DNA from: Bacteroidales bacterium Bact_14
Lineage (GTDB): Bacteria > Bacteroidota > Bacteroidia > Bacteroidales > UBA932
Length of the DNA stretch: 59,088 nt
NCBI GenBank assembly: GCA_001602865.1
Contig: LUZF01000007.1
Span: 1 to 59,088, forward strand
Direction of reading: 5' to 3'
The first letter of the stretch is position 1; each line of letters starts with the position of its first letter. Shown piece by piece: positions 5,650 through 47,975 of this stretch. The position numbers were made by a program, and so were the translations under genes. The notes below the pieces were generated by a model that saw only the letters and a list, made by a program, of their open reading frames with translations, was not told the DNA's origin and ran no database searches.

Positions 5650-5682
5650 TTTGCAAAGATAAAGATTCCTTTTATATCTTTG
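5650..5682 (+). promoter_or_regulatory. Bacteroidetes-type promoter for the DUF2723 gene
   Basis: -33 TTTG (5650-5653), 21-nt spacer, -7 TATCTTTG (5675-5682), 6 nt before ATG 5689. A minus-strand TATCTTTG lies at 5654-5661. Confidence 0.6.
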
Positions 5683-8600: not shown

Positions 8601-8820
8601 CGCGCGCTTCTACCTCGAATTCTACGAGTACGCCGTCGATGATTTCGAACTCTGCGGCAACTACATCTATTACCTCGCCGACACGTTCAAGGTGAACGGA
8701 GACGAAGGGCTTTCCGACAAACTGGTGGACAATTTCTCCAGGCTGGTGGACCTGATGACCGGTAAGGAGGATGGGGACATCCGGGATGCGGACGCCGGCG
8801 AGATGGAATTGGTCGGTTAG
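5689..8820 (+). CDS. DUF2723 integral membrane protein (GT117-like)
   Basis: N-terminal TYLSTMEPTASFWDCGEFIASSYKLEVGHPPGNP motif, multi-TM region, large soluble C-terminus. Confidence 0.92.
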   Translation: MDTKKFNLWNRLTGLLVFAVSLATYLSTMEPTASFWDCGEFIASSYKLEVGHPPGNPVFQLIARFFTIFGDNMHAAILVNAVSALCSALTIFLLYLTIVFFVKRLVRPGADGRYNLANALIIFGSGAVGALAYTFSDTFWFSAVEGEVYGMSSLFTALVFWAMIRWYETADEPYANRWIVLISFLMGLSIGVHLLNLLTIPALVFLFYYRKRENGTFSFWEYVKILLISVVILGAILFVIVPWLPKAAAYADLAFVNGLGLPYNSGAAFFMVALLALCFWGLFRSLKREKVVLNTVLLCFTTIIIGFSIFSICIIRSAAKTPTNEYQPDNAFTLVRYLSREQYGSNPILYGQYFDAPYDLKVKRYWAPLNGKYVHADGPVDIKYKAEGKMLFPRMWSPSTSGTANEDFYESYMNGKGKRIDGTDHKKPTMGANLAYFFDYQMNWMYWRYFMWNFVGRQNDIHSPTPGDIFLGNWESGVKFLDNYRLGDQADAPDMLKNNKGKNHYYFLPLLLGLLGLFFQFGRDKRGCWLVFLLFFMTGIAIVVYLNQPPYQVRERDYAYAGSFYAFSIWIGIAVAAVYGWLKDLLRKDSVAAAAGVTVLLLCVPALMAAQNWDDHDRSHRTSAVEIGYNYLNSAGENGILVTHGDNDTFPLWYAQEVENVRPDVRICNTSLLGTDWHIDQMKYAVNESAPLDLRVGLEQYLYGTNEVVYIYDTRNQVIPLSDVMTVFRHPDAKIVLASGKRVDYIMSRRFSIPVNKENVLRCGILSEKYADQIPDEIVLEIPEGKDYLTKPELFMLDLLSNYRWDRPLNLLNMAGDLNMGIKDYLMFEGFSYRFVPLRNTPSSRDAGIVDTDRLYDLLTNVYSFDAVSREGWYVDYQNLYTYLGAVPLRSMFVTAADAFLKAGETERAIEMLDMCEEKVPASNFPIETIPIGFSGNDFMITEMVDLYYRLGQRDKARELGIALANELIVTARFYLEFYEYAVDDFELCGNYIYYLADTFKVNGDEGLSDKLVDNFSRLVDLMTGKEDGDIRDADAGEMELVG

Positions 8821-14169: not shown

Positions 14170-14188
14170 ACTTCAGTGCGTTTTTACG

Positions 14189-17100
14189 TTAGAAGCCAAG
14201 CTGGATACCGAGCATATAGGTGCGCGGGAAAGGATAACGGCCGTCGTCGTAACCCGTCGTAATCACGCTTGCGGAAACCTCCGGATCGCCGTACTTGTTG
14301 TACGGGGACAGGGTGAGGAGGTTCTGGATGCTCAGGGAGACGCGCAGGCTGCGGAAGGTATCGCCGAGCGAACGGGTGTTGAAGTTGTAGCCCAACTGGA
14401 AGTTGGAGACCTTCAGGTAGCTGGCCTTCTCGACGTAGAAGTCGGAGACGCGCATGTTGCTGCCGGCGTCGGTACGGGTCAGGCGCGGATAGGTGCCGTT
14501 CGGGTTGGACGGGCTCCACGCGTTCTTCGCGACATCCGCGAGCATATTGTAGTAACCGTTATGCTCGCTGCGGATGGAGATCAGGGAGCACTTGGCCCAG
14601 GACAGGAGGGTCTGGCCGAGGGCGCCGTACATATAGACGGAAGCGTCCCAGTTCCGGAAGCTTGCGGAGAGGTTCAGACCGTAGTTCAGGTCCGGGAAAC
14701 CGTTGCCCAGGTAGGTCTTGTCTTCGGTCGTGATATGTCCGTCTCCGTTCAGGTCCTTGTAGAGGAAGTCGCCGGGGGCGGTGCCCGCATAATCATAATA
14801 GGAGCCCTGGCCATAGAGTTCGACGGCCTTCGCGTTGAGGGCGTCGATTTCGGCCTGGCTGGTGATGATGTGGTCCACGACATAGCCCTGGTAGGTACCG
14901 AGCGCGAGGTCGTTGTAGGAAACCTGGCAGTCTTCCCAGCCGGAACCCTTCGGGCCGGAGACGGTCGTACCGGCGCCGATATCGACAGCCCTGTTCTTGT
15001 TGGTGGATGCGGTCGCGGTCGCGGAGAAGAACCAGTCACGGCTGAACTGCTTCTTGTAACCGAGGGCGAATTCGAAACCGGAGTTGCGGATGGAACCGAA
15101 GTTCGTCGTAATCTTATCAAAACCGGCGGAAGGACGGATGGTCTTCTCGAGGATCAGGTCCCGGGTATCGCGGATGTAGTAATCGACGCTGAAGGTCAAG
15201 GCGTTGCGCAGGAATGCGAGGTCGAGACCGACGTTGGTCTGGACGGAGGTTTCCCAGTGGAGACCCGTGTCGATTTCGCTGGTCTGGATGAGACCGACGA
15301 GGCGGTTCATATCACCGTTGGTGCCGAAGTAGTCGAAGGAAACGCCTGCGGAGAGCCGGGGAACGGAGGCAAGCGCGTCAACATTGCTGTTACCGGTGGT
15401 ACCCCAGCCGGCGCGGAGTTTCAGGACGTCGAATACGCCCAGGTCCTTGATGAATTCTTCGCGGCCGATGTTCCAGGCGGCGGAGAAGGACGGGAAGGTA
15501 CCCCAGCGCTTCTGCTTACCGAAGTTGGAGGAACCGTCGCGGCGGATTGTCGCGGTCAGCATATAACGGCTGTCATAGGCGTAATTGAGACGCGCGAAGT
15601 AGGAGGCGTTGCGGGACTGGACTTTCGGACCGCCGGAACCCTTGTCGTAAGCGGTAGGATCCTTGGAGAAGAAGCCGCGCAGGAAGTCGTAGGTCAGGTA
15701 CGAAGTCTCGGAACCGTTCGAGGAAGCGTGGTAGATGCCCGCGGACTGACCGGCCATCAGCGTGATGTGGTGCTTGAAGAATTCGCGGTCCCAGGTCAGG
15801 TAGTTCTCCGCGCTGACGCTGGTGCTGGCGGAACCGCTCGTCCTGAAGGAGTCCATGGGCGTGTTCTTGTTCTGGTCCCACTCATAGTAGGTACCGAACC
15901 AGACCGGCGTATAGTTCCAGCTGTTGGAACCGGAGAAGTCGTACTTGAGGTTGGTGCGGAAAGTGAGGCCCTTCGCGAGGGTCACTTCGGCCCAGAAGGA
16001 ATTGCGGATGGAACCGTTGTCGTTGTCCCAGTCCTTCTTGTAGGTGGTCTTGTACTGCTCCGCATACGGGTTGGAGGCGTACATACCGGCCGAGCTTTCC
16101 ACGTCCGCGTCGAACATGAAGTGGCCGTAGGTGCCGTCCGGGTAGACGACAGGGACGTTGTTGAGCGTGCCCGTCGCGCGGTCGACATAGTCCATCGTCG
16201 GGACGATGCGGGCATAGTCGAGCATATTGCCGCCGCTCTTGCCCTTGGAGGTGTTGAAGTTCATCGAGAGACCCGCCTTGAGCCACTTCGTGATGTTGAA
16301 GTCGGAGTTGAGGCGGATGAAGAGGCGTTTCTGCCAGGTGTTCACGACGATACCCTTGTTGTCCAGGTAGCCGATGGACAGGCTCGTGCGGGCGGAGTCG
16401 GAACCGCCGGAGATGGCGATGTTGTACTGCTGGCGGAAGGAAGGCTGGGTCATCACGTCCTGCCAGTCGATCTCGTTGAGCCGGCTGTCATACGTGCCGT
16501 CGAACGCCGGGAAAGGCATACGGCCGTCGGCGTTGAGGGACTCGCGGTAAGCGGCCAGCCAGTCGGTCAGGTTCGCCACGTCCATTCTGCGGGCGTAGGA
16601 GGAGATACCGAAATTGGAGGTGAAGTCCACGCGCGTCTTGCCCGCGGCGCCCTTGCGGGTCGTCACGAGGATGACGCCGTTCGCACCGTTGGAACCGTAG
16701 ATCGCGGTCGCGGAAGCGTCCTTGAGGATTTCGATGCTGAGCACTTCCTGCGGGTCGAGCCAGGTGAGGTTCGAGGAGGTACCGTGATCGACGCCGTCCA
16801 CGATCCAGAGCGGATTCGTGTCGCCGTTCACGGTCGCGACGCCGCGGATGCGGATGTTATATCCGCCGGTCGGGTCGCCGCTGGACTGGGTGATGACGAC
16901 GCCGGCCGCCGCGCCCTGGAGACCCTGGGCGATGGTAAGCGGCGCGCGCTTCATCATAGACTCGGAGTCCACCGAGGCGACCGAACCGGTCACGTCGCTC
17001 TTTTTCTGGACGCCGTAACCGATCACCACGGTTTCTTCCAGTAGTTCCGCGTCCTCCTGCAGGAGGATGTCGAATACCGTCCGGGTCCCGATGGTGATTT

Positions 17101-17332
17101 CCTGGTCCTTGTAACCGATGGAAGTAATCACGAGCGTGGCGCCCGGGCGAACCGTCAGGGCAAAGGAGCCGTCAGGTCCGGTCATCGTGCCGTTGGTCGT
17201 CCCCTTCTCAAGGATGCTGACGCCGACGGCAGGTCCCTGGTTGTCCTTGACGACACCGCTGACCCGCGTCTGCGCGAAGAGCGAGATGCCCAGCGACAGA
17301 AACAGAAGCACAGTAAATAGTTTACTTTTCAT
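14189..17332 (-). CDS. SusC/RagA family TonB-dependent receptor
   Basis: CarboxypepD_reg-like N-terminus (RVSGVVKDNQGPAVGVSILEKGTTNGTMTGPDGSF), VVIGYGVQKKSDVTGSV box, plug and C-terminal barrel. Confidence 0.97.
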   Translation of the reverse strand: MKSKLFTVLLFLSLGISLFAQTRVSGVVKDNQGPAVGVSILEKGTTNGTMTGPDGSFALTVRPGATLVITSIGYKDQEITIGTRTVFDILLQEDAELLEETVVIGYGVQKKSDVTGSVASVDSESMMKRAPLTIAQGLQGAAAGVVITQSSGDPTGGYNIRIRGVATVNGDTNPLWIVDGVDHGTSSNLTWLDPQEVLSIEILKDASATAIYGSNGANGVILVTTRKGAAGKTRVDFTSNFGISSYARRMDVANLTDWLAAYRESLNADGRMPFPAFDGTYDSRLNEIDWQDVMTQPSFRQQYNIAISGGSDSARTSLSIGYLDNKGIVVNTWQKRLFIRLNSDFNITKWLKAGLSMNFNTSKGKSGGNMLDYARIVPTMDYVDRATGTLNNVPVVYPDGTYGHFMFDADVESSAGMYASNPYAEQYKTTYKKDWDNDNGSIRNSFWAEVTLAKGLTFRTNLKYDFSGSNSWNYTPVWFGTYYEWDQNKNTPMDSFRTSGSASTSVSAENYLTWDREFFKHHITLMAGQSAGIYHASSNGSETSYLTYDFLRGFFSKDPTAYDKGSGGPKVQSRNASYFARLNYAYDSRYMLTATIRRDGSSNFGKQKRWGTFPSFSAAWNIGREEFIKDLGVFDVLKLRAGWGTTGNSNVDALASVPRLSAGVSFDYFGTNGDMNRLVGLIQTSEIDTGLHWETSVQTNVGLDLAFLRNALTFSVDYYIRDTRDLILEKTIRPSAGFDKITTNFGSIRNSGFEFALGYKKQFSRDWFFSATATASTNKNRAVDIGAGTTVSGPKGSGWEDCQVSYNDLALGTYQGYVVDHIITSQAEIDALNAKAVELYGQGSYYDYAGTAPGDFLYKDLNGDGHITTEDKTYLGNGFPDLNYGLNLSASFRNWDASVYMYGALGQTLLSWAKCSLISIRSEHNGYYNMLADVAKNAWSPSNPNGTYPRLTRTDAGSNMRVSDFYVEKASYLKVSNFQLGYNFNTRSLGDTFRSLRVSLSIQNLLTLSPYNKYGDPEVSASVITTGYDDGRYPFPRTYMLGIQLGF

Positions 17333-17465
17333 ACTGTTGTGATTTGATGGTTAGATAAAGATTATGATGTTGAACTATGATTTCCGTCCCGTATCGTAAT
17401 TTTACGCAGAATCCGGCGGCTCTTCGTTCCATTATCGCCCGTTTTCTACCTTGTTCGTAACGTTC

Positions 17466-17513
17466 GCCCATTTGGGCACCTTTTAGAGCGTTTTGGGATA
17501 AAAACGCCTAAAA
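17466..17513. promoter_or_regulatory. Two adjacent palindromes in the divergent susC/regulator intergenic region
   Basis: GCCCATTTGGGC (17466-17477) and TTTTAGAGCGTTTTgggatAAAAACGCCTAAAA (17481-17513). Confidence 0.5.
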
Positions 17514-17568
17514 TCGCGAACATACTATTCTTATTTTTGTACAAACGGGAATAAGACCTGACGATGCC

Positions 17569-20500
17569 ATGACTTTCCTGAGCCTGATACTGAGTGCAAT
17601 CCTTGCCATAGGTGCCGGCAGCGGCGCCTCGATGCAACATTTCAATACCCTCGGAGTCAAAAACGGACTGTCCGACAATTATGTCAGGGACATCGAGCAG
17701 GGCAGCGACGGCTATATGTGGTTCGCGACGCTCGACGGCCTCAACCGCTACAACGGCTACAGCTTCACCAAATACTCCCTCCTGGATCTCGGCTTCAGCC
17801 ACGACGTCTTCGGATATGTCAAGGAGGACGGTGGCGGGACACTGTGGGTCAAGACCTCGGAAGGGGATATCTTCTTTTATGCGCGTGCTGAAAACAGACT
17901 CGATCCGGACATCGCGGCGCCGCTTGCGGGAATCGGCATCACGCGCGAGGACATCGTCGACCTTTTCGTCGATGAGGAAAAGAACCTGTGGGTCCAGTCC
18001 GGCGACAGCCTGTACACCTATTATTATCAGGCGCAGCGGCTGGAATCCTGTCTCCTGCCGGAGCGTTGCAGCGCCGTTTCCACCACAGGTGCCAGTTCCT
18101 ATGTGCTCCTGGCCGGCGGCGATGTCTGGGCCGTCCGTCCGGAGCGGAAATGCATTCTCACCGGAGACGCGGAAACGCCGCCGGACGGAATCCGGGGCGA
18201 CCTCCAGGGAAGGCTCTGGGCCTATGGCCACAGCCTGTCCTTCTATGACGCATCCACGGGAAGCCGGCGGGACTTCGAGTTGCAGAAGTATCTGCCGGAA
18301 GGGGATTATATCCGGACGATGGCGGTCGTAGGGGAGGACCTATGGTTCGGAACAGACCGGAGCGGCATCTATATCCTGGATGGGAATCTCTCCCTGAAAC
18401 CTCCCATCCGTTATGAGCCGGACCAGGAATCCACGCTGCCGGGCAACCATATCAACTGCATTCTCTACCGGAACGGAATTATCTGGATCGGCGTCGGTCA
18501 GATGGGCGTCGCCTACTCGGAAGAGAAAATGCTGGATATCCGGCGCTTCAGGACCGACGTTTCCGAAAACATCGGAACCATTGCCGAAGATGCCCGGGGC
18601 CGGCTCATCGTCGGATACGACGGCCGCGGACTGATGGAAATGCAGCCCGGGGACGGCCGCCTGGCCGGCACCCGCCTGTCTGCCGACGGCCTGAACATCG
18701 TCGATTCCTGGGCGGACAAAAACGGGCTCCTGTATTTCTGTACCTACGGCAACGGCATCTTCTGCCTGGACGAAAGCGTCCACAGGCCGGCGGGCACAAG
18801 CCGCGCGTTCCGAAGGCTCACGGACAAGAGTTATGTCATCCGCGGAGACCGTGCCGGAAGGCTGTGGGTCGGGACCTACCACGACGGCATCGTCCGCATG
18901 GATCCGGACGGAACCCTGGAACAATACGACACGGACAATTCCGACCTGCTTTCCAACTCCATCACGGGAATGACGCGTCCTTCCGCCGAAGGGATCATCT
19001 ACGCCTGTACCCGCGGAGACCTGTACGCCATCGCGACGGAGCAGCCCGGCGTCAGGCGGCTGGACAACAGCATCCGCCAGTTCTCCTGCCTGTATCTGGA
19101 CGGACGGGGCATCCTCTGGATCGGCAGTACCGACGGCCTGTATTACATCGACTGGAAACGCGATTCCGAGCCGCAGCGGCTGACCGTCGCGGACGGCCTT
19201 TCCCACAACCACATCCTCGGCATCTGCGAAGACGGCTACGGCAACATCTGGGTCACGACCTACGACGGCTTCAACAATATCTTCGTCCTGGACGATCCGC
19301 TCTCGGACCACATCACGCTCCGCTGCTATCCCTATTTCGACGAGGACGGCATCGGCGAAGGCATGTTCAACCCCAATGCCATCTACTGCACTTCGGACGG
19401 GGATATCCTGATGGGCCTGGGCAGCGACATCATCGCGGTCCGGCCGGAGCTGTATCCGCCAGCCTCGACCACACAGGCCGTCACCATCACCCGCTTGCTG
19501 GTGTCCGGCGTCCCGGTTCCGCCCGCCACCCTGGAAAGCGGGAAACCGGTCAGGCTGAAATTCCACGACAACCTCTGGCTGGAAGTGTCCACGATGGACT
19601 ACCACGGCCATCTGGCCCGTTTCGAATTCCGGACGGACAGCCAGAAGGACTGGATTTTCCTGACAACCAACGTGCTGTATTTCAATGCGATGAAGAGCGG
19701 GAAACACAGCGTGGAGATCCGCCCGGTCGGCAACAGTTCGGGCATTTCCCCCGCCAGGCTCGATTTCCGGGTCGCTCCGCCTTTCTATCGTTCCCCGTTC
19801 GCCATCGTCGCCTATATCCTCCTCCTGGCGGGCGCCCTCCTGTACCTGGTCCATCGCGTCCGGGAGCACAACAGAATGCGCATCGAAGCCGAACGGCAGC
19901 GCGCCAACGAAGCCAAATTCCAATTCTTTACCAACGTCAGCCACGACCTCCGCACGCCGCTGACCCTGATCATCACCCCGCTCCAGCAGCTGATCCACAA
20001 GCACCAGGGGCAGCCGATCGCCGGGAACCTCGAGCAGATCAACCAGACCGCGAAAATGCTCCTCAACGAGATCGACCAGATCCTCGACTTCAAGCAGATC
20101 AACGGGGAACTCTCCTTCAACCCGACCTACGGCAACCTCTCCCGTTTCGTTGAGGAAACCTGCCGGAGCTATGTCTCCATCGTGAAAGAGAATCCGGAAT
20201 CCCTCACCGTTGAGGTCGGTGGGACGCCCGTGATGACCTCATTCGATACGGCGAAGATGAGCCGTATCCTCTACAACCTCGTCGGAAACGCCTTCAAATA
20301 CTGCGGGGACGACTGCAAGGTGACCGTCTCCGTCGCGCAGGAGGACGGCCGCGCGCTCGTCCGGGTGGCGGACAACGGCCCGGGCATCAGCGACAAGGCC
20401 AAGGCGCATATCTTCGAACGCTTCTACCGGGAAGAGAAGAAACCGGCGGTGGGGAACGGCATCGGACTGAACATCGTCCAGGAATTCGTCCGCCTCCACG

Positions 20501-21351
20501 ACGGCGAAATCACGGTTACGGACAACCAGCCCCGCGGAAGCGTCTTCACGGTCTCCCTGCCCCTCCGGGAGGAAGAGAAACCGCAGCCGGCGCCGGCGCG
20601 GGAGGAGCAGCGCGAAGGCCGGCTCCGCATCCTCAACGCCGAGGACAACCCCGCCTTCCGCCATTTCGTCACGGAATGCCTCTCCTCCGAATACGAGGTC
20701 ACCGAAGCCTCCAACGGCAGGGAAGCGCTCGCGCTCCTCGAGTCCGGTCCGTATGACCTCATCCTCAGCGACGTGCTGATGCCGGAGATGGGCGGACGCG
20801 AACTGTGCCGCGCGCTGCGCGCCGACATCCGCTACGCCTCCATCCCCGTCATCCTGCTCACGGCCCTCCACGGCAAGGAACAGGAGCGCGAGAACCTCAA
20901 GGCCGGCGCCGACGATTCCCTCGAGAAGCCCTTCGACGTCGAAACCCTCCACCTCCGCATCTCCAAGCTCCTGAAAGCGAAGGTCTCCTCCGCTCCCGAA
21001 GCGCCGGAATGGCAGGGGAGCCGGAGCGACCGGGAACTGCTCGAGCGCATCTCCGCGGAACTGGAGGAGCACCTGACGGAGAGCGAATACGGCGTCGAGG
21101 CGCTCTGCTCATCCCTCAACCTCTCGCGCAGCGTCCTTTACAAGCGCATCATGGCCCTGACCGGCAAGGCGCCGCTGGCCTACATCCGGCAGATCCGCCT
21201 CGAGAAGGGACGGGCCCTGCTGGAAGGCGGCGAGACCTCCATTTCCCAGGTGGCCTGGAGCGTGGGCTTCTCGCCGAAGCAATTCTCCCGCCACTTCAGG
21301 GACGAATACGGCTGCCTGCCGACGGAGTATCTCCAGCATCTTCGGCAATAA
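17569..21351 (+). CDS. Hybrid two-component system regulator (beta-propeller/Y_Y_Y sensor, histidine kinase, receiver, AraC-type HTH)
   Basis: FFTNVSHDLRTPLTLI H-box; GNGIGLNIVQEFV; receiver DLILSDVLMPEMGG; HTH IRLEKGRALLEGGETSISQVAWSVGFSPKQFSRHFRDEYG. Confidence 0.97.
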   Translation: MTFLSLILSAILAIGAGSGASMQHFNTLGVKNGLSDNYVRDIEQGSDGYMWFATLDGLNRYNGYSFTKYSLLDLGFSHDVFGYVKEDGGGTLWVKTSEGDIFFYARAENRLDPDIAAPLAGIGITREDIVDLFVDEEKNLWVQSGDSLYTYYYQAQRLESCLLPERCSAVSTTGASSYVLLAGGDVWAVRPERKCILTGDAETPPDGIRGDLQGRLWAYGHSLSFYDASTGSRRDFELQKYLPEGDYIRTMAVVGEDLWFGTDRSGIYILDGNLSLKPPIRYEPDQESTLPGNHINCILYRNGIIWIGVGQMGVAYSEEKMLDIRRFRTDVSENIGTIAEDARGRLIVGYDGRGLMEMQPGDGRLAGTRLSADGLNIVDSWADKNGLLYFCTYGNGIFCLDESVHRPAGTSRAFRRLTDKSYVIRGDRAGRLWVGTYHDGIVRMDPDGTLEQYDTDNSDLLSNSITGMTRPSAEGIIYACTRGDLYAIATEQPGVRRLDNSIRQFSCLYLDGRGILWIGSTDGLYYIDWKRDSEPQRLTVADGLSHNHILGICEDGYGNIWVTTYDGFNNIFVLDDPLSDHITLRCYPYFDEDGIGEGMFNPNAIYCTSDGDILMGLGSDIIAVRPELYPPASTTQAVTITRLLVSGVPVPPATLESGKPVRLKFHDNLWLEVSTMDYHGHLARFEFRTDSQKDWIFLTTNVLYFNAMKSGKHSVEIRPVGNSSGISPARLDFRVAPPFYRSPFAIVAYILLLAGALLYLVHRVREHNRMRIEAERQRANEAKFQFFTNVSHDLRTPLTLIITPLQQLIHKHQGQPIAGNLEQINQTAKMLLNEIDQILDFKQINGELSFNPTYGNLSRFVEETCRSYVSIVKENPESLTVEVGGTPVMTSFDTAKMSRILYNLVGNAFKYCGDDCKVTVSVAQEDGRALVRVADNGPGISDKAKAHIFERFYREEKKPAVGNGIGLNIVQEFVRLHDGEITVTDNQPRGSVFTVSLPLREEEKPQPAPAREEQREGRLRILNAEDNPAFRHFVTECLSSEYEVTEASNGREALALLESGPYDLILSDVLMPEMGGRELCRALRADIRYASIPVILLTALHGKEQERENLKAGADDSLEKPFDVETLHLRISKLLKAKVSSAPEAPEWQGSRSDRELLERISAELEEHLTESEYGVEALCSSLNLSRSVLYKRIMALTGKAPLAYIRQIRLEKGRALLEGGETSISQVAWSVGFSPKQFSRHFRDEYGCLPTEYLQHLRQ

Positions 21352-38011: not shown

Positions 38012-38042
38012 TTTGTGCGAATTTATATATGAGGTAAATTTG
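38012..38042 (+). promoter_or_regulatory. Promoter for the Oar-like receptor gene
   Basis: -33 TTTG (38012-38015), 19-nt spacer, -7 TAAATTTG (38035-38042). Confidence 0.65.
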
Positions 38043-38095: not shown

Positions 38096-41000
38096 ATGTT
38101 TAAATTAGTTAAACGAGCACTGGCGGTCCTTGCGGCCGTCTTGGTGGGCATCTCCGCATACGCCCAGGTGACCACCGCTTCCATGAACGGTAAGGTTACC
38201 GACAAACAGGGCGAACCTGTGGTCGGCGCCACCGTTGTCGCCGTCCATACCCCTTCCGGGACGCAGTACTATGCTGTGGCCAACGCGGAAGGCCGTTACT
38301 TCATCAACGGTATGCGTGCCGGCGGCCCTTACACCGTCGAAGTCAGCTGCCTGGGCTACCAGAGCATGACCTTCACCGACGTGACCCTCTCCCTCGCCGA
38401 GCCGTACGCCCTCAACGCGACGGTCAGCGATGACACGGAGATGCTTTCCGAGGCCATCGTGGTCTCCACCGCCGCCTCCAAGTTCGCAGCGGAGAAGACC
38501 GGTGCCGCGACCAACATCACCAGCACCCAGATCACCTCGCTGCCGACGATCAGCCGCAGCATCACCGACGTCACCAAGCTTTCCCCTTACGGTGGCAACG
38601 GAATGAGCTTCGCCGGTTCCGACGGCCGTACCTCCAACTTCACCGTGGACGGTGCGAACTTCAACAACAACTTCGGCCTCTCCGACGGCCTTCCCGGCGG
38701 CGGCAGCCCGATCTCCATCGACGCCATCGAGGAGATGCAGGTCGTGATTTCCCCGTACGACGTCCGCCAGGCCAACTTCATCGGCGGTGGTGTCAACGCC
38801 ATCACCAAGTCGGGTACCAATACCCTCAAGGGTTCCGCCTACGTCTACCACCGCAACGAGAACATGCGTGGTAACGTGGTCGACGGCGACGAAGTCTCCG
38901 GCGCCCGCGACAAGGATCGCACCACGACTTACGGCTTCACCCTCGGCGGCCCGATCATCAAGAACAAACTCTTCTTCTTCGCGAACTACGAGTACTCCGC
39001 GATGCCGACCGTGGTCAACCGCTGGCGTGCTTCCAAGGATGGCGCCGCCGACCCGGACAAGTTCATTTCCCGTACCTCCGAGGCTGATATGGAGACCGTC
39101 TCCAACTTCCTGAAGACGAACTACGGTTATGACACCGGTTCCTGGACCGACTTCCCGGCCGACGAGAACAACATGAAGATCCTCGGCCGCATCGACTGGA
39201 ACATCTCCGACAAACACCACCTGGCCCTGCGCTACAACTACACGGTCAATAACCGCTGGAACAGCACCAACGCTTCTTCCTCCGACTGCGGCCAGCGTAC
39301 GACCAAGAGCCGTCTGTCCGAGTACTCGATGGCCTTCGCCAACTCGATGTATTCCATGCAGAACGTGGTCAACACCTGGTCCCTCGACCTCAACAGCCGT
39401 CTGACCGACGTCCTGTCCAACCAGTTCCTCGCGACCTACTCCATCCTGGACGATGTCCGCGGTACCAACTCCGAGCCGTTCCCGTTCATCGACATCCTCG
39501 ACGGCACCGGCACGATTACTCCGTACATGTCCGTGGGTTATGAGCTCTTCACCTGGAAGAACGCCGTCCACAACCGCGTCCTCCTCATCAAGGACGATGT
39601 GACCTACTTCGCCGGCAGCCACAAGATCACCGCCGGTGCGAGCTACGAGTACCAGCTGGCCGACAACGCCTATATGCGTAACGGTTCCGGTTACTACCGC
39701 TACAACTCCCTCCAGGACTTCCTTTCCGGCGCCACCCCGGAGACCGTCAACCTGACCTACGGTTATGACGGCGACGAGGATCCGGCCGCCCGCGTGCGTT
39801 TCGCGAAGGTCGCCCTCTACGGCCAGGATGAGTGGAACCCGACCGACCGCCTCAAGCTGACCGCCGGTCTTCGTATCGAGTCCATCCTCTTCAACAACGC
39901 CGACGTAGGCCGCAACCAGGCCATCTACGACGTCGACTACAACGGCTACCACATCGACACCGGCACCTGGCCGACCACCAAGGTCCAGTTCTCGCCGCGC
40001 GTCGGTTTCGTCTGGGATGTCCTGGGCAACAAGAGCCTGAAGGTCCGTGGCGGTACCGGCCTCTTCACCGGCCGTCTCCCGCTGGTGTTCTTCACCAACA
40101 TGCCTACCAACTCCGGCGTCGTCCAGTACCAGGGCAAGATCACGACGACCTACAAGAACGGCGTCGCGACCCCGAGCCCGTACCTTTCCGCCTTCGCCGG
40201 CAAGATGATTACCGATCCTGCCGCCCTGCGTGACAAGATGGTCGCCGTGGCCGGCTTCCCGACCACCTACGATCCGGCCAAGGGTACCCTCCCGTCCAGC
40301 ATCGCCGCCGTGGATCCCAACTTCAAGATGCCGCAGGTCTGGAAGACCTCCCTCGCCATCGACTACGCGTTCCCGACGTCCTTCCCGCTCAGCATCAGCA
40401 GCGAGGTCATCTTCAACAAGACCGTCAACGCCGTCTGCATCCGTGACTACAACATGAAGCCGGTGGAAGGCTTTGCCCGCCTCAACGGCGCGGACAACCG
40501 CCACATGTATCCGACCGACTACACCTATACTTACAATTATGCGAAGAGCAACACCGGTACCTCCGCTTACCTGCTGACCAACACCAACCAGGGTTACGGC
40601 GGATCCGCCAGCTTCTCGATCGACGCCCGTCCGGTGGACGGCCTCTACCTCACGGCGGCCTACACCCACACGGTGTCCAAGGAACTCACCGGTATGCCGG
40701 GTTCCGACGCCTCCTCCGCATTCACCTATGTCCCGACTTCCGAGGGCCCGAACAACGCTCCGCTCCACAACTCCCAGTATGTGACTCCGGACCGCTTCTT
40801 CGCGAACCTTGCCTACGACGACAACTCCAACAATCACTTCAGCCTGTACTACGAGACCTGGAGAGGCGGTTCCAACTACACCTATATGTATGCGAACGAC
40901 CTCAACAACGACAACTACAACTACGATGTGATGTACATCCCGCGTGACGCCAGCGAGATCCGGTTTGCTTCCACCGACGATGCCAACGCTTACTGGGCAT

Positions 41001-41404
41001 ACGCCGAGAAGAACCCGTACCTGACCAAGCACGCCGGCAGCTACGCCGAGGCCTACAGCGTCTACTCCCCGTGGGTCCACCGCCTGGACTTCAGCTACAA
41101 GCACGACTTCAAGGTCCGTATGGGCAGGGTCACCAATACCCTCCAGCTCAACCTGGATGTCAAGAACGTCCTCAACCTGTTCAACTCCTCCTGGGGTGTG
41201 TCCAAGGTCATGAACCCGAGCCTGAACCAGGGCCGTATCCTCAATGTGGACCGCATCGATTCCGACGGTGTCCCCGTGTTCTCCACGATCAAGGACAGCA
41301 AGGATCGCCAGATCCTCTCCGCGACGGTTCCTACCTGGACCTACAGCCACGGCATCGGCCAGTGCTGGTATGCCCAGATCGGTATCAAGTATTTGTTCAA
41401 CTAA
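38096..41404 (+). CDS. Oar-like TonB-dependent receptor with carboxypeptidase-regulatory N-terminal domain
   Basis: MNGKVTDKQGEPVVGATVVAVHTPSGTQYYAVANAEGRYFI; plug TVDGANFNNNFGLSDGLPGGGSPISIDAIEEMQVVISPYDVRQANFIGGGVNAITKSGTN; Oar-like barrel, no SusD partner. Confidence 0.93.
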   Translation: MFKLVKRALAVLAAVLVGISAYAQVTTASMNGKVTDKQGEPVVGATVVAVHTPSGTQYYAVANAEGRYFINGMRAGGPYTVEVSCLGYQSMTFTDVTLSLAEPYALNATVSDDTEMLSEAIVVSTAASKFAAEKTGAATNITSTQITSLPTISRSITDVTKLSPYGGNGMSFAGSDGRTSNFTVDGANFNNNFGLSDGLPGGGSPISIDAIEEMQVVISPYDVRQANFIGGGVNAITKSGTNTLKGSAYVYHRNENMRGNVVDGDEVSGARDKDRTTTYGFTLGGPIIKNKLFFFANYEYSAMPTVVNRWRASKDGAADPDKFISRTSEADMETVSNFLKTNYGYDTGSWTDFPADENNMKILGRIDWNISDKHHLALRYNYTVNNRWNSTNASSSDCGQRTTKSRLSEYSMAFANSMYSMQNVVNTWSLDLNSRLTDVLSNQFLATYSILDDVRGTNSEPFPFIDILDGTGTITPYMSVGYELFTWKNAVHNRVLLIKDDVTYFAGSHKITAGASYEYQLADNAYMRNGSGYYRYNSLQDFLSGATPETVNLTYGYDGDEDPAARVRFAKVALYGQDEWNPTDRLKLTAGLRIESILFNNADVGRNQAIYDVDYNGYHIDTGTWPTTKVQFSPRVGFVWDVLGNKSLKVRGGTGLFTGRLPLVFFTNMPTNSGVVQYQGKITTTYKNGVATPSPYLSAFAGKMITDPAALRDKMVAVAGFPTTYDPAKGTLPSSIAAVDPNFKMPQVWKTSLAIDYAFPTSFPLSISSEVIFNKTVNAVCIRDYNMKPVEGFARLNGADNRHMYPTDYTYTYNYAKSNTGTSAYLLTNTNQGYGGSASFSIDARPVDGLYLTAAYTHTVSKELTGMPGSDASSAFTYVPTSEGPNNAPLHNSQYVTPDRFFANLAYDDNSNNHFSLYYETWRGGSNYTYMYANDLNNDNYNYDVMYIPRDASEIRFASTDDANAYWAYAEKNPYLTKHAGSYAEAYSVYSPWVHRLDFSYKHDFKVRMGRVTNTLQLNLDVKNVLNLFNSSWGVSKVMNPSLNQGRILNVDRIDSDGVPVFSTIKDSKDRQILSATVPTWTYSHGIGQCWYAQIGIKYLFN

Positions 41405-41419
41405 TCACAGGGTACGAAT

Positions 41420-43141
41420 ATGAAAACAAGATATATCCTTTCTGCGCTTGCAGCATTCTCCCTGCTTCTGACCGGCTGCGTCCAATCGCTTCCCGGCGAC
41501 CTCGAGGTTATCCAGGTTGACAAGTCCTACGTGTCCATCCCCGAAGCGGGTGGTGACGGCACGATCAAGGTGACCTGTGCAGAAGCCTGGTCCGTCTATA
41601 CCGACGAGAACAACACCATCCCGAACTGGCTCACCGTCACCCCGATGAGCGGCTCCGGCGATGCGACCATGACTTTCCATGCCGACGGCACTCCGAGCTA
41701 CCGCGAGGCGACCATCAAGATCAAGGTCGGCGACAAGTTCCAGCACATTACCGTAGCCCAGGGCGTCAATATGGTGTCCGAGGCTACCTGCGCCCAGGTC
41801 ATCGCCGGCCCGGACGGCAAGAACTTCATCGTCGAAGGCGTCTGCGTCTCCATCGCCAATACGCAGTATGGTAACTGGTACCTTGAGGACAAGACCGGCC
41901 AGATCTACATCTACGGTACCGTGGATGCGGAAGGCAAATACAACTGGACCAGTTTCGGCATCGAAGAAGGCGACGTCGTGAAGGTGAAGGGTCCGAAGAC
42001 GACCTACAACGGCACCGTCGAGCTCGTCGACGTCAAGGTTGTCAGCGTGACCAAGTCCCTGGTACAGCTTGTCTCCGGTGGCGAAGCCTCCATTGAAAGC
42101 GACGGCGGTCCCTTCGAAGTCGGCCTTGTCAGCAAGGGCGGCAGCATCGCCATCGATATTCCGGCGGCGGCCAAGGAGTGGCTCTCCATCTCCGGTATCA
42201 AGGTGGTTCCGGGCGTTCCGGATCCCGCCTTCCCGACCATCGCGGTTCCTGACACCACGGTCGTGACCTTCCAGGCTACGGCGAACGAGGCCGGCCCGCG
42301 TCTCGCGACGATTTCCTACTCTTCCTCCAAGGATGGCAACACCTCCACGGTGACTTCCCTGGTCAGCCAGGCCGGCCTGTCCGGCACCGAGCTTGTGCCG
42401 TTCACCGTCTCCGAGGCTGTCGCCTACGCCCAGAAACTGGGTAGCGAGAGCACGAAGGACTTCTATGTCAAGGGTATCGTTTCGAGAATCGCCAACAACG
42501 GCGCCTTCGGTTCCTATGGCAACTCGACGTTCTTCCTCTCCGAGGACGGTACGTTCGACGGTACGGATGACAAGAACTTCAACAAGGAAGTGACCTTCGA
42601 GGCCTACCGCGTCCTCTACTTCGACAACCAGAAGTGGGTGCCCGGTACGAATGTGGGCCAGGTCTCCGTCGGTGACGAGGTCGTCATCTGCGGCAAACTC
42701 ACGCTCTATAACGGCATCGCCGAGACTTCCGGCAACAAGGCCTATGTCTACAGCATCAACGGTGTCAAGGAAGAGACCAACGGTCTCGGCAGCCTTGCGT
42801 TCCCGTTCAAGCCTGCAGGTGCGAAGGCCTGCTTCGACGCCGGCTTCAAGGGCAGCGTCTATGTCCAGGGCATTATCAGCAAGATCGCCAACAACGGTCA
42901 GTTCAGCGCCCAGTACGGCAATGCGTCCTTCTACATCTCCGACGACGGCGTGTACCACGACGACGATTTCGAGGCCTACCGCGTCCTCTACCTGGGCAAC
43001 AGGAAGTGGGTCGAGGGTGACACCCAGATCGCTGTCGGCGACGAAGTGATCATCAATGGACCTCTGACCAAGTACAACGCTACGTACGAGACGGTCCAGA
43101 ACAAGGGTTACATCTATTCCCTGAACGGCAAGACCGAGTAA
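41420..43141 (+). CDS. Secreted lipoprotein with BACON-like domains and three OB-fold-like repeats (DUF5689-like)
   Basis: Lipobox LLLTGC; BACON-like N-terminus; OB-like repeats starting FIVEGVCVSIANTQYGNWYLED, DFYVKGIVSRIANNGAFGSYGNSTFFLSED, SVYVQGIISKIANNGQFSAQYGNASFYISDD. Confidence 0.8.
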   Translation: MKTRYILSALAAFSLLLTGCVQSLPGDLEVIQVDKSYVSIPEAGGDGTIKVTCAEAWSVYTDENNTIPNWLTVTPMSGSGDATMTFHADGTPSYREATIKIKVGDKFQHITVAQGVNMVSEATCAQVIAGPDGKNFIVEGVCVSIANTQYGNWYLEDKTGQIYIYGTVDAEGKYNWTSFGIEEGDVVKVKGPKTTYNGTVELVDVKVVSVTKSLVQLVSGGEASIESDGGPFEVGLVSKGGSIAIDIPAAAKEWLSISGIKVVPGVPDPAFPTIAVPDTTVVTFQATANEAGPRLATISYSSSKDGNTSTVTSLVSQAGLSGTELVPFTVSEAVAYAQKLGSESTKDFYVKGIVSRIANNGAFGSYGNSTFFLSEDGTFDGTDDKNFNKEVTFEAYRVLYFDNQKWVPGTNVGQVSVGDEVVICGKLTLYNGIAETSGNKAYVYSINGVKEETNGLGSLAFPFKPAGAKACFDAGFKGSVYVQGIISKIANNGQFSAQYGNASFYISDDGVYHDDDFEAYRVLYLGNRKWVEGDTQIAVGDEVIINGPLTKYNATYETVQNKGYIYSLNGKTE

Positions 43142-43161
43142 CGGACAGTTGCTTATTTTCG

Positions 43162-43195
43162 GTGAGCCGACCCATTCCGGGCCGGCTCACTTTTT
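43162..43195 (+). terminator. Rho-independent terminator between the OB-fold gene and the NUC1 gene
   Basis: GTGAGCCG...CGGCTCAC stem followed by TTTTT. Confidence 0.8.
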
Positions 43196-43246
43196 ATTAT
43201 TGCGGGAAAACTTGTAACTTTACAGACTACTAAAGTCTTGCTGTGT

Positions 43247-44395
43247 ATGGAACGTCTATTCCGGTTCAGGATGCTATCGGTTTTGACCGCCTTCCTGCTG
43301 TTTGCAACTGCCTGCGGAGAGAAAGTGGAGGGCGAGGTCAGGCTCATTGTCCCTGAGACGCAACTGGCGTGGGAAGGGGGCAGCCAGGACATTTCAATCG
43401 TGGCCGGCGGCGCCTGGACGCTCGAATTCGAGTTCGACGCCGATGCCTGGGCGCGCGTGGACCGTGCTTCCGGCACGGGGAATGCTTCCGTGACGCTCCG
43501 TTGGGACGCAAACCCGAGCACGGACGACCTGCGGTATGTCCGTTTGGTCCTGCACGGCGGCAGCAAGATGTCCAGCGTCCCGCTGACCCAGGCCAAGGCG
43601 GGGGAGGTCTCCGTCCTGACTTCCGACACGCCGGGCAAGTGGATGGAACTCCCCGCGACGAATACCCCGGGGCTGTTCTTCATCTACCACCCGATGCCGG
43701 ACAACCGCTCGCTCCGCAATTATTCCTATTACTATGATCCCTCCGCCCGTGTCGCCGTCTGGGTGGCGTATCCGCTCAACAACGGCCTGAAGGGCACCGG
43801 CAACCGCCCGGATCCGGAGCCGTGGGGGCTGGACCCGAAGGTTCCGAAGGCAGACCAGGCCGTCCTGTACAAGGGCTATTCCCTGAGCAGCACCTATGAT
43901 CGCGGCCATCAGATCCCGTCCGCCGACCGCTACGCGTACGGCGCCAACGTCGAGACTTACTACGGCGCGAATATGACCCCGCAGCGCAATGATTTCAACG
44001 GAGGAATCTGGAGCACGCTTGAAAGTAAGGTGCGTACCTGGGCCGGCAAATGCGACACGCTGTATGTCGTGACCGGCGCCGACCTGCGCGGTGCAAGCGA
44101 GAAGGTCCAGGACAACGAGCGCAAGGATGTCACCGTGCCGACGGGCTATTTCAAGGCGCTGCTCGCCTACAAGAAGGGCGGCGACTTCGGCACCGGGACC
44201 GGGAATTACATCGGGATCGGTTTCTATTTCGAACACCGCAAATACGAAAATACCAACGCCGCCGTCAAGGCCCAGGCCCTCAGCCTGGATACCCTGGAAG
44301 ACCTGCTCGGCCTGGATTTCTTCGTGAACCTTCCCGCGGACACGCAGAAAACCGTCGAGGCGCAGGATCCCGTCGACTGGTGGTGGAATAACTGA
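43247..44395 (+). CDS. BACON-domain DNA/RNA non-specific endonuclease (NUC1 family) lipoprotein
   Basis: Lipobox LLFATAC; BACON-like region; catalytic STYDRGHQIPSADR and YYGANMTPQRNDFNGGIWSTLESKVR. Confidence 0.93.
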   Translation: MERLFRFRMLSVLTAFLLFATACGEKVEGEVRLIVPETQLAWEGGSQDISIVAGGAWTLEFEFDADAWARVDRASGTGNASVTLRWDANPSTDDLRYVRLVLHGGSKMSSVPLTQAKAGEVSVLTSDTPGKWMELPATNTPGLFFIYHPMPDNRSLRNYSYYYDPSARVAVWVAYPLNNGLKGTGNRPDPEPWGLDPKVPKADQAVLYKGYSLSSTYDRGHQIPSADRYAYGANVETYYGANMTPQRNDFNGGIWSTLESKVRTWAGKCDTLYVVTGADLRGASEKVQDNERKDVTVPTGYFKALLAYKKGGDFGTGTGNYIGIGFYFEHRKYENTNAAVKAQALSLDTLEDLLGLDFFVNLPADTQKTVEAQDPVDWWWNN

Positions 44396-44403
44396 TTTAT
44401 ACT

Positions 44404-44850
44404 ATGAAACGCATCATCCTGTTTATGGTCGCAGCGCTGTTGCTTAGCTGCGAATGGGCCTTTGCCCAGAAAGAGACGTATACGATTACGCATTCCGGCT
44501 GGGGACGGCTGGAGACCGGCGTCAAGGTCGCTATGACGACCTACGAGACTTCCGTGTCCGAGCTGGACATCCACCGCTGGCGGAAGACCAGGGGAGAGCT
44601 GGTCCTGGACCAGGAGGGAAAGCTCCTCACCGTGCGCCTGCCCCGAAAAGAACTTACGTATAACCTGCTGACGGACAGCTATGTCCATCAGACCCGGGGC
44701 GGCTGGGACTATGTCGAGTGCATGGCCCTGGAGAATGACCATACCCTCTGCCGTGTCTGGGTGTGCACCCACGAGGACGGCACCCGCCAGATCCTGGTCC
44801 TGTATCCCAAGTTCGTCCAGGGCTACAAGATCATTCCCGTAGAAGAATAA
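44404..44850 (+). CDS. Exported 148-aa protein of unknown function
   Basis: Signal peptide MKRIILFMVAALLLSCEWAFAQ; between two nuclease genes; family not recognised. Confidence 0.75.
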   Translation: MKRIILFMVAALLLSCEWAFAQKETYTITHSGWGRLETGVKVAMTTYETSVSELDIHRWRKTRGELVLDQEGKLLTVRLPRKELTYNLLTDSYVHQTRGGWDYVECMALENDHTLCRVWVCTHEDGTRQILVLYPKFVQGYKIIPVEE

Positions 44851-44866
44851 CAATCCCCGATAACCG

Positions 44867-45946
44867 ATGAAAAGACTGATTTGTATGCTCCTGGCGCTGC
44901 TCGTGCTGTCCGGCACGTCGGCGTGCGGCCAGAAAAAGAAGACGACGGAGAACTTCGCCGTCGTGGGTTTCTACAACGTGGAAAACCTGTTCGACACGCT
45001 GGACGACCCGGACCGGGACGATTCCCAGTTCCTGCCGGACGGCGAGAACAAGTGGACGCCGGACAAGTACCGCAGGAAGCTGAACAACATCGCCCGGGCG
45101 ATCCGCGCGATTGCGACCGAGAACGGCCAGTTCCACGCCGTCCTCGGCCTCGCCGAAGTGGAGAATGACCACGTCTTGAAGGACCTGGTCGCCTGCGAGG
45201 ACCTCGCGAAGGCCGGCTTCAAGTTCGTCCACCACGAGGGCGGGGACGGCCGCGGCATCGACTGCGCGCTCCTGTACCGCCCGGACCGTTTCAAGGTCCT
45301 CGAGAGCCGGAGCATCCCGTATGACTTCAACAGCGACATCGAGTTCGAGTACAACAAGGAGGAGCAGGCCGCCTTTTCGACCCGCGACGTGCTGATGGTG
45401 CGCGGGAAGCTCGACGGCGAGATGTTCGCCGTCTACGTGGCGCACCTCCCGTCCCGCCGGGGCGACAAGGGGATGGACCTCCGCGCCCGTGGCGCCGAGA
45501 TCGTCTACCAGGACGCCATGGCCCTGATGAAAAAGTACCCAGGCATCAAGATCGCCGTGATGGGCGATATGAATGATGACCCCGTCGACGCCAGTATGAC
45601 CGAGTACCTCCACGCGCGCGAAACCATCGCCGAAATGACCCCGAAGGAATTCTTCTCCCCGTTTATGTCGATGCTGAAGGCCGGCTACGGCTCGATGGAG
45701 TACCGCGGCACCTGGGAGATCTTCGACCAGATCCTCGTGAACAACAACGTCGTCAACGCCCCCGCCGGCACGCTGAAAATCCAGCCTGTCGAGCAAGGCA
45801 AGTTCTACGGCCGTGTCTTCAAGCCGGACTTCCTGATCCAGCAGTCGGGCCGCTACAAGGGGACCCCTTTCCGCACATTCTCGAACGGCGAATTCATCGA
45901 CGGCTATTCCGACCATCTCCCCACCTACATCATCCTTTCCAAATAA
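44867..45946 (+). CDS. Endonuclease/exonuclease/phosphatase (EEP) family lipoprotein
   Basis: Lipobox SGTSAC; NVENLFDTLDDP, LAEVEND, GIDCALLYRPDRF, VAHLPSRRGD, MGDMNDDPVD, YSDHLPTY. Confidence 0.95.
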   Translation: MKRLICMLLALLVLSGTSACGQKKKTTENFAVVGFYNVENLFDTLDDPDRDDSQFLPDGENKWTPDKYRRKLNNIARAIRAIATENGQFHAVLGLAEVENDHVLKDLVACEDLAKAGFKFVHHEGGDGRGIDCALLYRPDRFKVLESRSIPYDFNSDIEFEYNKEEQAAFSTRDVLMVRGKLDGEMFAVYVAHLPSRRGDKGMDLRARGAEIVYQDAMALMKKYPGIKIAVMGDMNDDPVDASMTEYLHARETIAEMTPKEFFSPFMSMLKAGYGSMEYRGTWEIFDQILVNNNVVNAPAGTLKIQPVEQGKFYGRVFKPDFLIQQSGRYKGTPFRTFSNGEFIDGYSDHLPTYIILSK

Positions 45947-45953
45947 ACGACTT

Positions 45954-47975
45954 ATGAAAAAAGCCCTTTTGTTCCTCGCAGCAGTTATGACGCTTTCCGC
46001 TTGCAATACCGAGAAAAACCCGTTCTTCCAGGAATGGGACACCCCTTACGGCATTCCTCCCTACGAGAAGGTCAGCCTCGATGATTACGTTCCGGCGATC
46101 AAGGCCGGCATCGCCGAACAGACCAAGGAGATCGAGGCCATCGTGAACAACCCCGAGGCCCCGACCTTCGAAAACACCATCGCGGCGCTGGATCTCTCCG
46201 GTGCGCTCCTGGCCAAGGTCGGCGGCGTCCTCTACAATGTCGCCGAGACGGAGAATTCCCCCGAACTGGAGGCCATCGTCGAGGAGGTGACTCCGCTCGA
46301 GTCGGAGCACAGCGACAACATCTATATGAACAAGGCGCTCTATGAGCGCGTCGCCGCCGTCTACAACGCCGACCAGAGCAAGCTCACCCGCGAGCAGCAG
46401 ATGGTCCTCAAGAAGTACTACGAGGCCTTCGAGCGCAACGGCATCGGCCTGGGCGAGAAGGAGCAGGAGGAGCTCCGCGCCATCAACACGGAGATCTCCG
46501 TCAAGACCAACAAGCTCGGCAACAACATCCTGGCGGAGAGCAACGCCTTCAAGGAGCAGTTCGGCATCAGCGTGTCCGCCTACCCGACCGCGATGACCGA
46601 GACCGCCGACCGCGCGCGCCGCGAGCAGATGTTCAAGGCCTACTCCAGCCGCGGCCACAACGGAAATGACCACGACAACCGCCAGCTCGCGCTGGACATT
46701 ATCGACCTCCGCATCCGCAAGGCCCGCCTGATGGGGTATGACAACCCGGCCGACTACATCCTCGAGAACAAGATGGCCCACGACCACGAGACCGTGGACG
46801 CGTTCCTCGCCGACATTATGAAAGCCGCCGTCGCGAAGGCGAAGGAGGAGATCAAGGATATGCAGAAGGTGATGGACCGCGACATCGCCGCCGGCGTCCT
46901 CCCGCAGGGGACGAAGATCCAGCCCTGGGACTGGTGGTACTATGCCGAGAAGGTCCGCAAGGAGAAATACGACCTGGACGAGAGCCTGACGAAGCCCTAT
47001 TTCGAGATCAACAATGTCAAGAAGGGCATCTTCCTTGCCGCGAAAACGCTCTACGGCGTGAATGTGGAGCCCCTCCAGGGCGTTCCCGTCTACAACCCCG
47101 AGGTCGAGACCTACAAGCTGACCTACGACGACGGCTCCCTGATCGGCATCTTCACCTGCGATTATTTCCCGCGCTCTTCGAAGCGCGGCGGCGCCTGGAT
47201 GAACAATGTCCGCGAGCAGTATGCGGAGGCGGACGGCACCGACGTGCGCCCGATCATCGTGAATGTCGCGAACTTCACGTCCCCCGACGCGGACGGCCAC
47301 GCCTTCCTGACGGTGGACGAGGTCCAGACCGCCTTCCACGAGTTCGGCCACGCCCTCCACGGCTTCCTCTCGAAGTGCCACTACAAGATTGTCAGCGGTA
47401 CTTCCGTCGCCCGCGACTTCGTCGAGGTCTTCTCCCAGTTCAACGAGAACTGGGCCTTCCAGCCCGAGCTCCTCGCCCAGTATGCGAAGCATTACCAGAC
47501 CGGCGAGGTCATCCCGGCGGAGCTGGTCGAAAAGATCAACAACTCCCTGAAGTTCAACCAGGGCTTCATGACGACGGAGCTCTGCGCCGCGTCCATCCTG
47601 GATATGAAATGGCACGAGCTCTCGAGCATCGATGGCATTGAGGTAGACGCTTTTGAGGCGAAGGTCTGCAAGGAGATGGGCCTCATCGACGAGATCATCC
47701 CGCGCTACCGCACGACCTACTTCAACCACATCTTCGCCAGCGGCTACAGCGCCGGCTACTACGGCTACCTCTGGGCGGAGGTCCTCGACAAGGACGCTTT
47801 CGCCGCCTTCGAGGAGTCCCCGAACGGCGTCTTCGACCTCGCCCTCGCCAGGAAGTTCAAGGAAACCTTCCTGGAGAAGGGCGGCAGCGAAGAGCCGATG
47901 ACCCTTTACAAGTCCTTCCGTGGCCGCGAACCCGACACCGCCCCGATGCTCCGCGCCCGCGGCTTAAAAAAGTAG
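45954..47975 (+). CDS. M3 family metallopeptidase (Dcp-like) lipoprotein
   Basis: Lipobox MTLSAC; FHEFGHALHGFLS zinc site. Confidence 0.96.
   Translation: MKKALLFLAAVMTLSACNTEKNPFFQEWDTPYGIPPYEKVSLDDYVPAIKAGIAEQTKEIEAIVNNPEAPTFENTIAALDLSGALLAKVGGVLYNVAETENSPELEAIVEEVTPLESEHSDNIYMNKALYERVAAVYNADQSKLTREQQMVLKKYYEAFERNGIGLGEKEQEELRAINTEISVKTNKLGNNILAESNAFKEQFGISVSAYPTAMTETADRARREQMFKAYSSRGHNGNDHDNRQLALDIIDLRIRKARLMGYDNPADYILENKMAHDHETVDAFLADIMKAAVAKAKEEIKDMQKVMDRDIAAGVLPQGTKIQPWDWWYYAEKVRKEKYDLDESLTKPYFEINNVKKGIFLAAKTLYGVNVEPLQGVPVYNPEVETYKLTYDDGSLIGIFTCDYFPRSSKRGGAWMNNVREQYAEADGTDVRPIIVNVANFTSPDADGHAFLTVDEVQTAFHEFGHALHGFLSKCHYKIVSGTSVARDFVEVFSQFNENWAFQPELLAQYAKHYQTGEVIPAELVEKINNSLKFNQGFMTTELCAASILDMKWHELSSIDGIEVDAFEAKVCKEMGLIDEIIPRYRTTYFNHIFASGYSAGYYGYLWAEVLDKDAFAAFEESPNGVFDLALARKFKETFLEKGGSEEPMTLYKSFRGREPDTAPMLRARGLKK

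Follow-up and report, generated by a model that had tools for sequence, protein, structure and literature searches.

A predicted surface nuclease pair in a Bacteroidales genome and its linkage to a putative nucleic-acid uptake locus of the Bacteroidia

The window analysed here is a stretch of 59,088 nucleotides from Bacteroidales bacterium Bact_14 (contig LUZF01000007.1), and our subject is a pair of predicted nucleases, NUC1 and EEP (43247-45946), that lies in it among six open reading frames on the + strand (38096-47975). A preliminary description, made from the sequence alone, had presented the six genes as one extracellular nucleic-acid scavenging locus. All six open reading frames were confirmed with the same coordinates and strand, and Pfam agreed on the families proposed (Oar-like receptor, BACON lipoprotein, NUC1, EEP and M3 peptidase). 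The grouping itself did not survive comparison with relatives, where the genes are two separable modules and not one unit: module A, an Oar-like receptor with a lipoprotein that we call OBlip, and module B, NUC1 with EEP. The features are:

38012-38042, + strand: Bacteroidetes-type promoter, TTTG-N19-TAAATTTG, upstream of the receptor and serving module A
38096-41404, + strand: Oar-like TonB-dependent receptor with CarboxypepD_reg and OMP_b-brl_4 domains, module A (PF25183, E=2.4e-58)
41420-43141, + strand: OBlip, a lipoprotein with BACON (E=2e-9), three OB-like repeats and a lipobox, module A
41774-42070, + strand: OB-like repeat 1 of OBlip (PF01336, E=0.0014, under the cut-off; repeat alignment)
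42383-42790, + strand: OB-like repeat 2 of OBlip, 50% identical to repeat 3
42791-43138, + strand: OB-like repeat 3 of OBlip (repeat alignment)
43162-43195, + strand: intrinsic terminator ending module A (-22.8 kcal/mol, z -3.1, then a T-run)
43247-44395, + strand: NUC1, a DNA/RNA non-specific endonuclease lipoprotein, module B (Endonuclease_NS, PF01223, E=6.6e-39)
44404-44850, + strand: exported protein of 148 amino acids that matches no family (pN/pS 0.37)
44867-45946, + strand: EEP-family lipoprotein, a predicted nuclease, module B (Exo_endo_phos_3, PF19580, E=8.6e-92)
45947-45953, + strand: junction of EEP and M3, only 7 bases, the site of the barrel and DUF5689 genes in relatives
45954-47975, + strand: M3 metallopeptidase lipoprotein (Peptidase_M3, PF01432, E=6.4e-122)

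The promoter pattern TTTG-N19-TAAATTTG has four exact matches in the whole window against 0.1 expected by chance. The terminator reported earlier does fold as one; the four genes beyond it, from NUC1 to M3, therefore belong to a second transcription unit or have a promoter of their own. Lipoboxes are visible on the four products for which they had been claimed, namely OBlip (LLTGC), NUC1 (FATAC), EEP (GTSAC) and M3 (LSAC). A comparison with the related genome G058 shows purifying selection on every one of the six genes, with pN/pS values from 0.16, for the receptor, to 0.54.

NUC1 scores 134 bits against PF01223 (cut-off 23) and matches the solved nucleases NucA (E 9e-16), Serratia nuclease, EXOG and EndoG. 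The intact DRGH motif described earlier is there as YDRGH at residues 217-221. The RGH general base, the metal-binding Asn and the Trp and Glu residues are invariant in 32 of 32 orthologues and present in the window protein; the BACON domain that had been assigned to NUC1 was not detected in the window copy and comes near threshold in orthologues only. NUC1 thus resembles NucA, Serratia nuclease and EXOG in sequence, in the RGH motif and in the retained catalytic Asn and Glu, and differs from them in being a lipoprotein, in its BACON-like N-terminal part and in its place beside an uptake locus. A further likeness, one of general description, is to EndA of Streptococcus pneumoniae, which we take to belong to the same nuclease family and which works beside a DNA-uptake machine; that machine, however, is Gram-positive and consists of pilus-like uptake and ComEC without a TonB receptor. 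EEP scores 308 bits against PF19580 (cut-off 27), and its catalytic motifs are complete, as had been claimed: the motif residues YN.ENLF, E.EN, HxPSR, GDMND and SDH are invariant in 32 of 32 orthologues and kept in the window. EEP resembles the extracellular DNases ExeM and NucH weakly (profile NF033681, E=2e-7) but falls far under the cut-off for that NCBIfam family (30 versus 300 bits), and a single-sequence search of the PDB with EEP gave no match. The two nuclease genes are adjacent in all 20 loci of an initial set from the genus; the earlier description of them as surface nucleases is supported, and their synteny is conserved.

In most members of the genus, EEP is followed by a gene for a CarboxypepD_reg outer-membrane barrel of about 960 amino acids and then by one for a DUF5689 lipoprotein of about 340 amino acids. 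Of the 49 genus loci in which the downstream side of EEP is assembled, 43 have DUF5689 no more than about 5 kb from EEP; two further loci (G040 and G060), outside this count, end inside the barrel gene. The order NUC1-EEP-barrel-DUF5689 is identical in a different family of the same order (f42; L104 and L105), proximity of EEP and DUF5689 recurs in 12 other families of the order, and EEP also stands head to head with barrel-DUF5689 in other families of the order. A class-wide sample included 19 genomes with a strong DUF5689, and 13 of these have an EEP within 4 kb of it. When named genomes were scanned with a barrel alignment led by Flavobacterium, 80 barrel loci were obtained, nearly all from Flavobacteriales and with Riemerella not among them; DUF5689 is next door in 79 of these and EEP beside the pair in 64. 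Conserved as it is over such a distance, from genus to class, the linkage of EEP to the pair is, as judged from these gene orders, not a matter of chance. A tree of 70 EEPs places the pair-linked proteins on one side and a group of unlinked paralogues apart (96/91), with the window EEP inside the linked side; the window was labelled by hand as linked even though its pair is gone, and several rows labelled unlinked on the linked side are contig-end cases. Pfam finds only CarboxypepD_reg on the barrel and does not call a transporter fold, but a model of the Flavobacterium hydatis barrel (pLDDT 84.5) has the fold of a TonB-dependent transporter, with PqqU, YncD, Fiu and FhuA as its best Foldseek matches (E to 1.8e-31). 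We note separately that the gene upstream of NUC1 in L104 codes for a lipoprotein that has DUF5689 and a faint BACON signal, and that barrel-DUF5689 is duplicated in tandem in the Myroides loci L211 and L222, of which L222 has one EEP for each copy.

One such pair of genes has been studied in connection with the passage of DNA through the outer membrane of Bacteroidota. Markerless deletion of either RA0C_RS04915 (CarboxypepD_reg, outer membrane) or RA0C_RS04920 (DUF5689) in Riemerella anatipestifer abolishes natural transformation, and the authors proposed that RS04920 binds DNA and RS04915 provides the passage, naming the strand-degrading step as unknown (PMC8459023). Their transposon screen yielded two essential outer-membrane genes and no nuclease; they reported Flavobacterium homologues at about 60% (59.6%, for RS04915) and 40% identity and found the barrel only in Flavobacteriaceae (PMC8459023). 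Mutation of tonBA or tonBB lowers transformation in the same species (PMC8383284). The barrel-DUF5689 pair described here appears to correspond to RA0C_RS04915/04920 in domain make-up, in adjacency and through the Flavobacterium homologues of that paper. The two systems share a CarboxypepD_reg barrel with a DUF5689 neighbour, families that stand beside EEP throughout the Bacteroidia and in most of the genus; they differ in that the window has lost both genes and that its relatives add NUC1 and EEP, which were not reported in PMC8459023. Our literature search found no paper joining these nucleases to DNA uptake. The linkage extends the pair from Flavobacteriaceae to many families of Bacteroidales and supplies two candidate nucleases, and the nucleic-acid role given to the locus in the preliminary description is strengthened by this class-wide association of EEP.

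The same linkage bears on what EEP cleaves. Phosphatases of lipids and of inositol also belong to the EEP superfamily. For this reason, and as no close solved structure was found for EEP, the substrate might be a phosphodiester other than nucleic acid, for instance a lipid or a sugar phosphate, in which case the neighbourhood would not be about nucleic acids at all. We regard this as very improbable, given that EEP adjoins NUC1, a member of a true nuclease family, matches extracellular DNases, if weakly, and is linked to the DNA-uptake pair.

The pair is missing in six of the 49 genus loci. In the window and in G001, G008, G058 and G015, EEP abuts M3, and in G019 only a degenerate barrel of 542 amino acids is kept; five relatives thus share the pair-less or degraded arrangement of the window, in whose genome no DUF5689 was found. 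In the EEP tree the window groups with the likewise pair-less G001, G058 and G008 in one clade (100/99). G019 stands separately, next to G054 and G057, and its branch measures 0.86, compared with 0.085 and 0.11 for these two. The EEP/M3 distance is 1.09-1.20 in all five no-pair genomes tested (window, G001, G058, G008 and G019) whereas 17 of the 18 genomes that have the pair give 0.57-0.82; NUC1 shows no rate shift with loss of the pair in the same comparison. Both nucleases keep their catalytic residues throughout, pair-less lineages included. This faster evolution, specific to EEP, suggests a functional coupling of EEP to the pair, in which a constraint from interaction would have been lost and catalysis kept, and the lineages that lost the pair are natural experiments that make such coupling testable. 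Secreted non-specific nucleases commonly have protective roles or dissolve extracellular DNA, and one could suppose that NUC1 and EEP protect the cell or dissolve the DNA of biofilms, traps or competitors, their adjacency to the pair being historical. The intact motif residues of both enzymes after the loss of the pair would fit this supposition. The EEP-specific rate shift and the class-wide linkage point instead to cooperation with import, and we hold this supposition to be quite unlikely.

We lean, with modest confidence, towards the view that NUC1-EEP is the nuclease part of a locus for nucleic-acid uptake in Bacteroidia, and that this locus has been reduced in the window to scavenging at the cell surface. 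In relatives with the full locus, the DUF5689 surface lipoprotein would capture extracellular DNA, NUC1 would nick or shorten it, EEP would process its ends or strands and the TonB-energised barrel would import it; these steps, from binding to import, are inferred, while the family assignments, gene order, linkage, transporter fold and intact active sites are observed and the need for the pair in transformation is experimental in Riemerella. In the window, which no longer has the barrel for import, the nucleases would degrade DNA or RNA at the surface to small products that enter by other routes, possibly Oar-OBlip. Since barrel and DUF5689 are gone while the nucleases are intact and under selection, surface degradation for the scavenging of phosphate or nucleosides is their most likely function, and nutrition is our first choice of purpose, over transformation. 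The window is then a reduced variant, and the fuller form of the locus is the more interesting object. More tentatively, and with rather less confidence than in the reading of the window locus, we propose that Bacteroidia take up DNA itself through the outer membrane by a pilus-independent, TonB-powered machine. It would consist of the DUF5689 receptor, a TonB-dependent transporter dedicated to the task and an EEP reserved for it, some Bacteroidales having NUC1 as an addition, and the window would be a digestion-only remnant.

Several points weigh against the uptake reading. Among the 80 Flavobacteriales loci there are 16 in which no EEP was detected close to the pair, a few of these being cut by contig ends, and EEP is therefore not needed everywhere. 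The Riemerella correspondence was drawn from domain content, adjacency and reported Flavobacterium homologues. The loss of transformation might be an indirect effect, and the authors who described the tonBB effect ascribed it to iron. The window genome is 66% complete, so that the pair could sit in the missing part, although the locus itself is without it and five relatives are likewise pair-less or keep a degraded form. One pair-bearing genome, G052, is an exception to the rate shift with an EEP/M3 ratio of 1.05, and the shift itself is suggestive and not proof, because it represents two independent events only. Finally, ComEC in the genus consists of the Competence core only, of about 370 amino acids (approximately 340-410), without DUF4131 (for example L230 2610-3740 and L233 1777-2865); DUF4131 is present in another family of the order. 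Ordinary transformation as the purpose in the genus is therefore doubtful, and no match to comEC was found near the barrel within the stretches of other genomes examined.

This last point also affects a different explanation, that the intact locus serves natural transformation and that EEP or NUC1 is the missing nuclease that makes bound double-stranded DNA importable, in the manner of pneumococcal EndA. The explanation has attractions, as the pair is essential for the process in Riemerella, where a strand-degrading step awaits its enzyme; EndA is presumably a relative of NUC1; and DprA was found in 32 of 32 near-complete genomes sampled and the DUF1343/NamZ family in 31 of 32. Against these stand the ComEC without DUF4131, the lack of EEP beside the pair in some Flavobacterium and the loss of the pair from the window lineage, and we consider the explanation possible but rather unlikely.

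The receptor of module A lies directly upstream of OBlip in nearly every genus relative with enough assembled sequence, and the two are therefore one unit. The preliminary description made this receptor the importer for the nucleases, in a SusCD-like arrangement without SusD. What stands of that proposal is the pairing of a TonB receptor with a lipoprotein of its own that is not SusD: Oar-OBlip resembles SusCD pairs as a constant receptor and lipoprotein pair and differs in having no SusD, as Pfam detected BACON alone on OBlip and no SusD-family domain. The comparison with relatives does not support the Oar receptor as import partner of the nucleases, and the description is probably wrong on this point. 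Oar-OBlip is within reach upstream of NUC1-EEP in about 18 of 29 genus loci, a figure counted by eye and approximate owing to contig ends, and NUC1-EEP is often found without Oar upstream; across relatives, then, the nucleases remain neighbours of each other and Oar in part does not. Conversely, Oar-OBlip runs straight into M3 in G029, whose genome has no EEP, precedes M3 in G025, where the nucleases are absent, and is on a different contig from NUC1-EEP in G020. Most relatives have another TonB-fold barrel, with DUF5689, as the partner of NUC1-EEP. The receptor that evolved together with the nucleases is thus probably a different one from Oar; naming an adjacent Oar receptor as importer calls for caution.

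A single scavenging system, with Oar-OBlip capturing and importing the products of NUC1 and EEP, is accordingly unlikely in our view. It would account for the adjacency in about 18 loci, for the near constancy of the receptor-OBlip pair, for the fact that in the window lineage no TonB receptor but Oar still neighbours the nucleases and for the weak resemblance of the OBlip repeats to OB folds. The terminator that parts the modules, the separate occurrence of each and the steady association of the nucleases with the other barrel elsewhere all speak against it, as does a profile comparison of OBlip with DUF5689 that gave a probability of only 8%. Oar-OBlip would rather be a separate capture-and-import pair, which has perhaps, but not necessarily, become the importer in the window lineage.

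The OB-like character of OBlip, also part of the preliminary description, is tentative. BACON is present, and the three repeats are related to one another at 40-50% identity; the OB assignment of the repeats is weak, with PF01336 at 18.9 bits against a cut-off of 27 and the OB domain of lysyl-tRNA synthetase at E=0.17. An AlphaFold model of the three repeats (pLDDT 43) is too low in confidence to inform on the fold, and a single-sequence search of the PDB with OBlip found no match. BACON/OB-like lipoproteins upstream of NUC1 vary greatly in number and size among species, and very large ones, of up to about 1,200 amino acids, lie between the receptor and NUC1 in L079, L135 and L143. Between the window (38096-44395) and G058 (L064), Oar is 91% identical and OBlip and NUC1 are each 79% identical, whereas the flanking genes are much less alike (MetK 72%, M3 69%, EEP 61%); this difference in identity suggests that the Oar-OBlip-NUC1 stretch was recently exchanged between species.

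Two neighbours were considered as parts of the system and rejected. Of all loci covered by the analysis, only those of the window and G058 have the 148-amino-acid protein, which is thus not a core part; neither Pfam nor further profile searches gave it a known family. M3 is a frequent neighbour, and its role as a part of the machine is unproven because it follows Oar-OBlip in the nuclease-less G029 and G025 and stands upstream of NUC1 in G050 (L067). Elsewhere in the window, positions 5689-8820 encode a homologue of the TMEM260-like protein O-mannosyl-transferase with its own Bacteroidetes-type promoter at 5650-5682, and positions 12406-21351 hold a genuine SusC/SusD pair (12406-17332) beside a hybrid two-component regulator, a locus of the polysaccharide-utilisation type.

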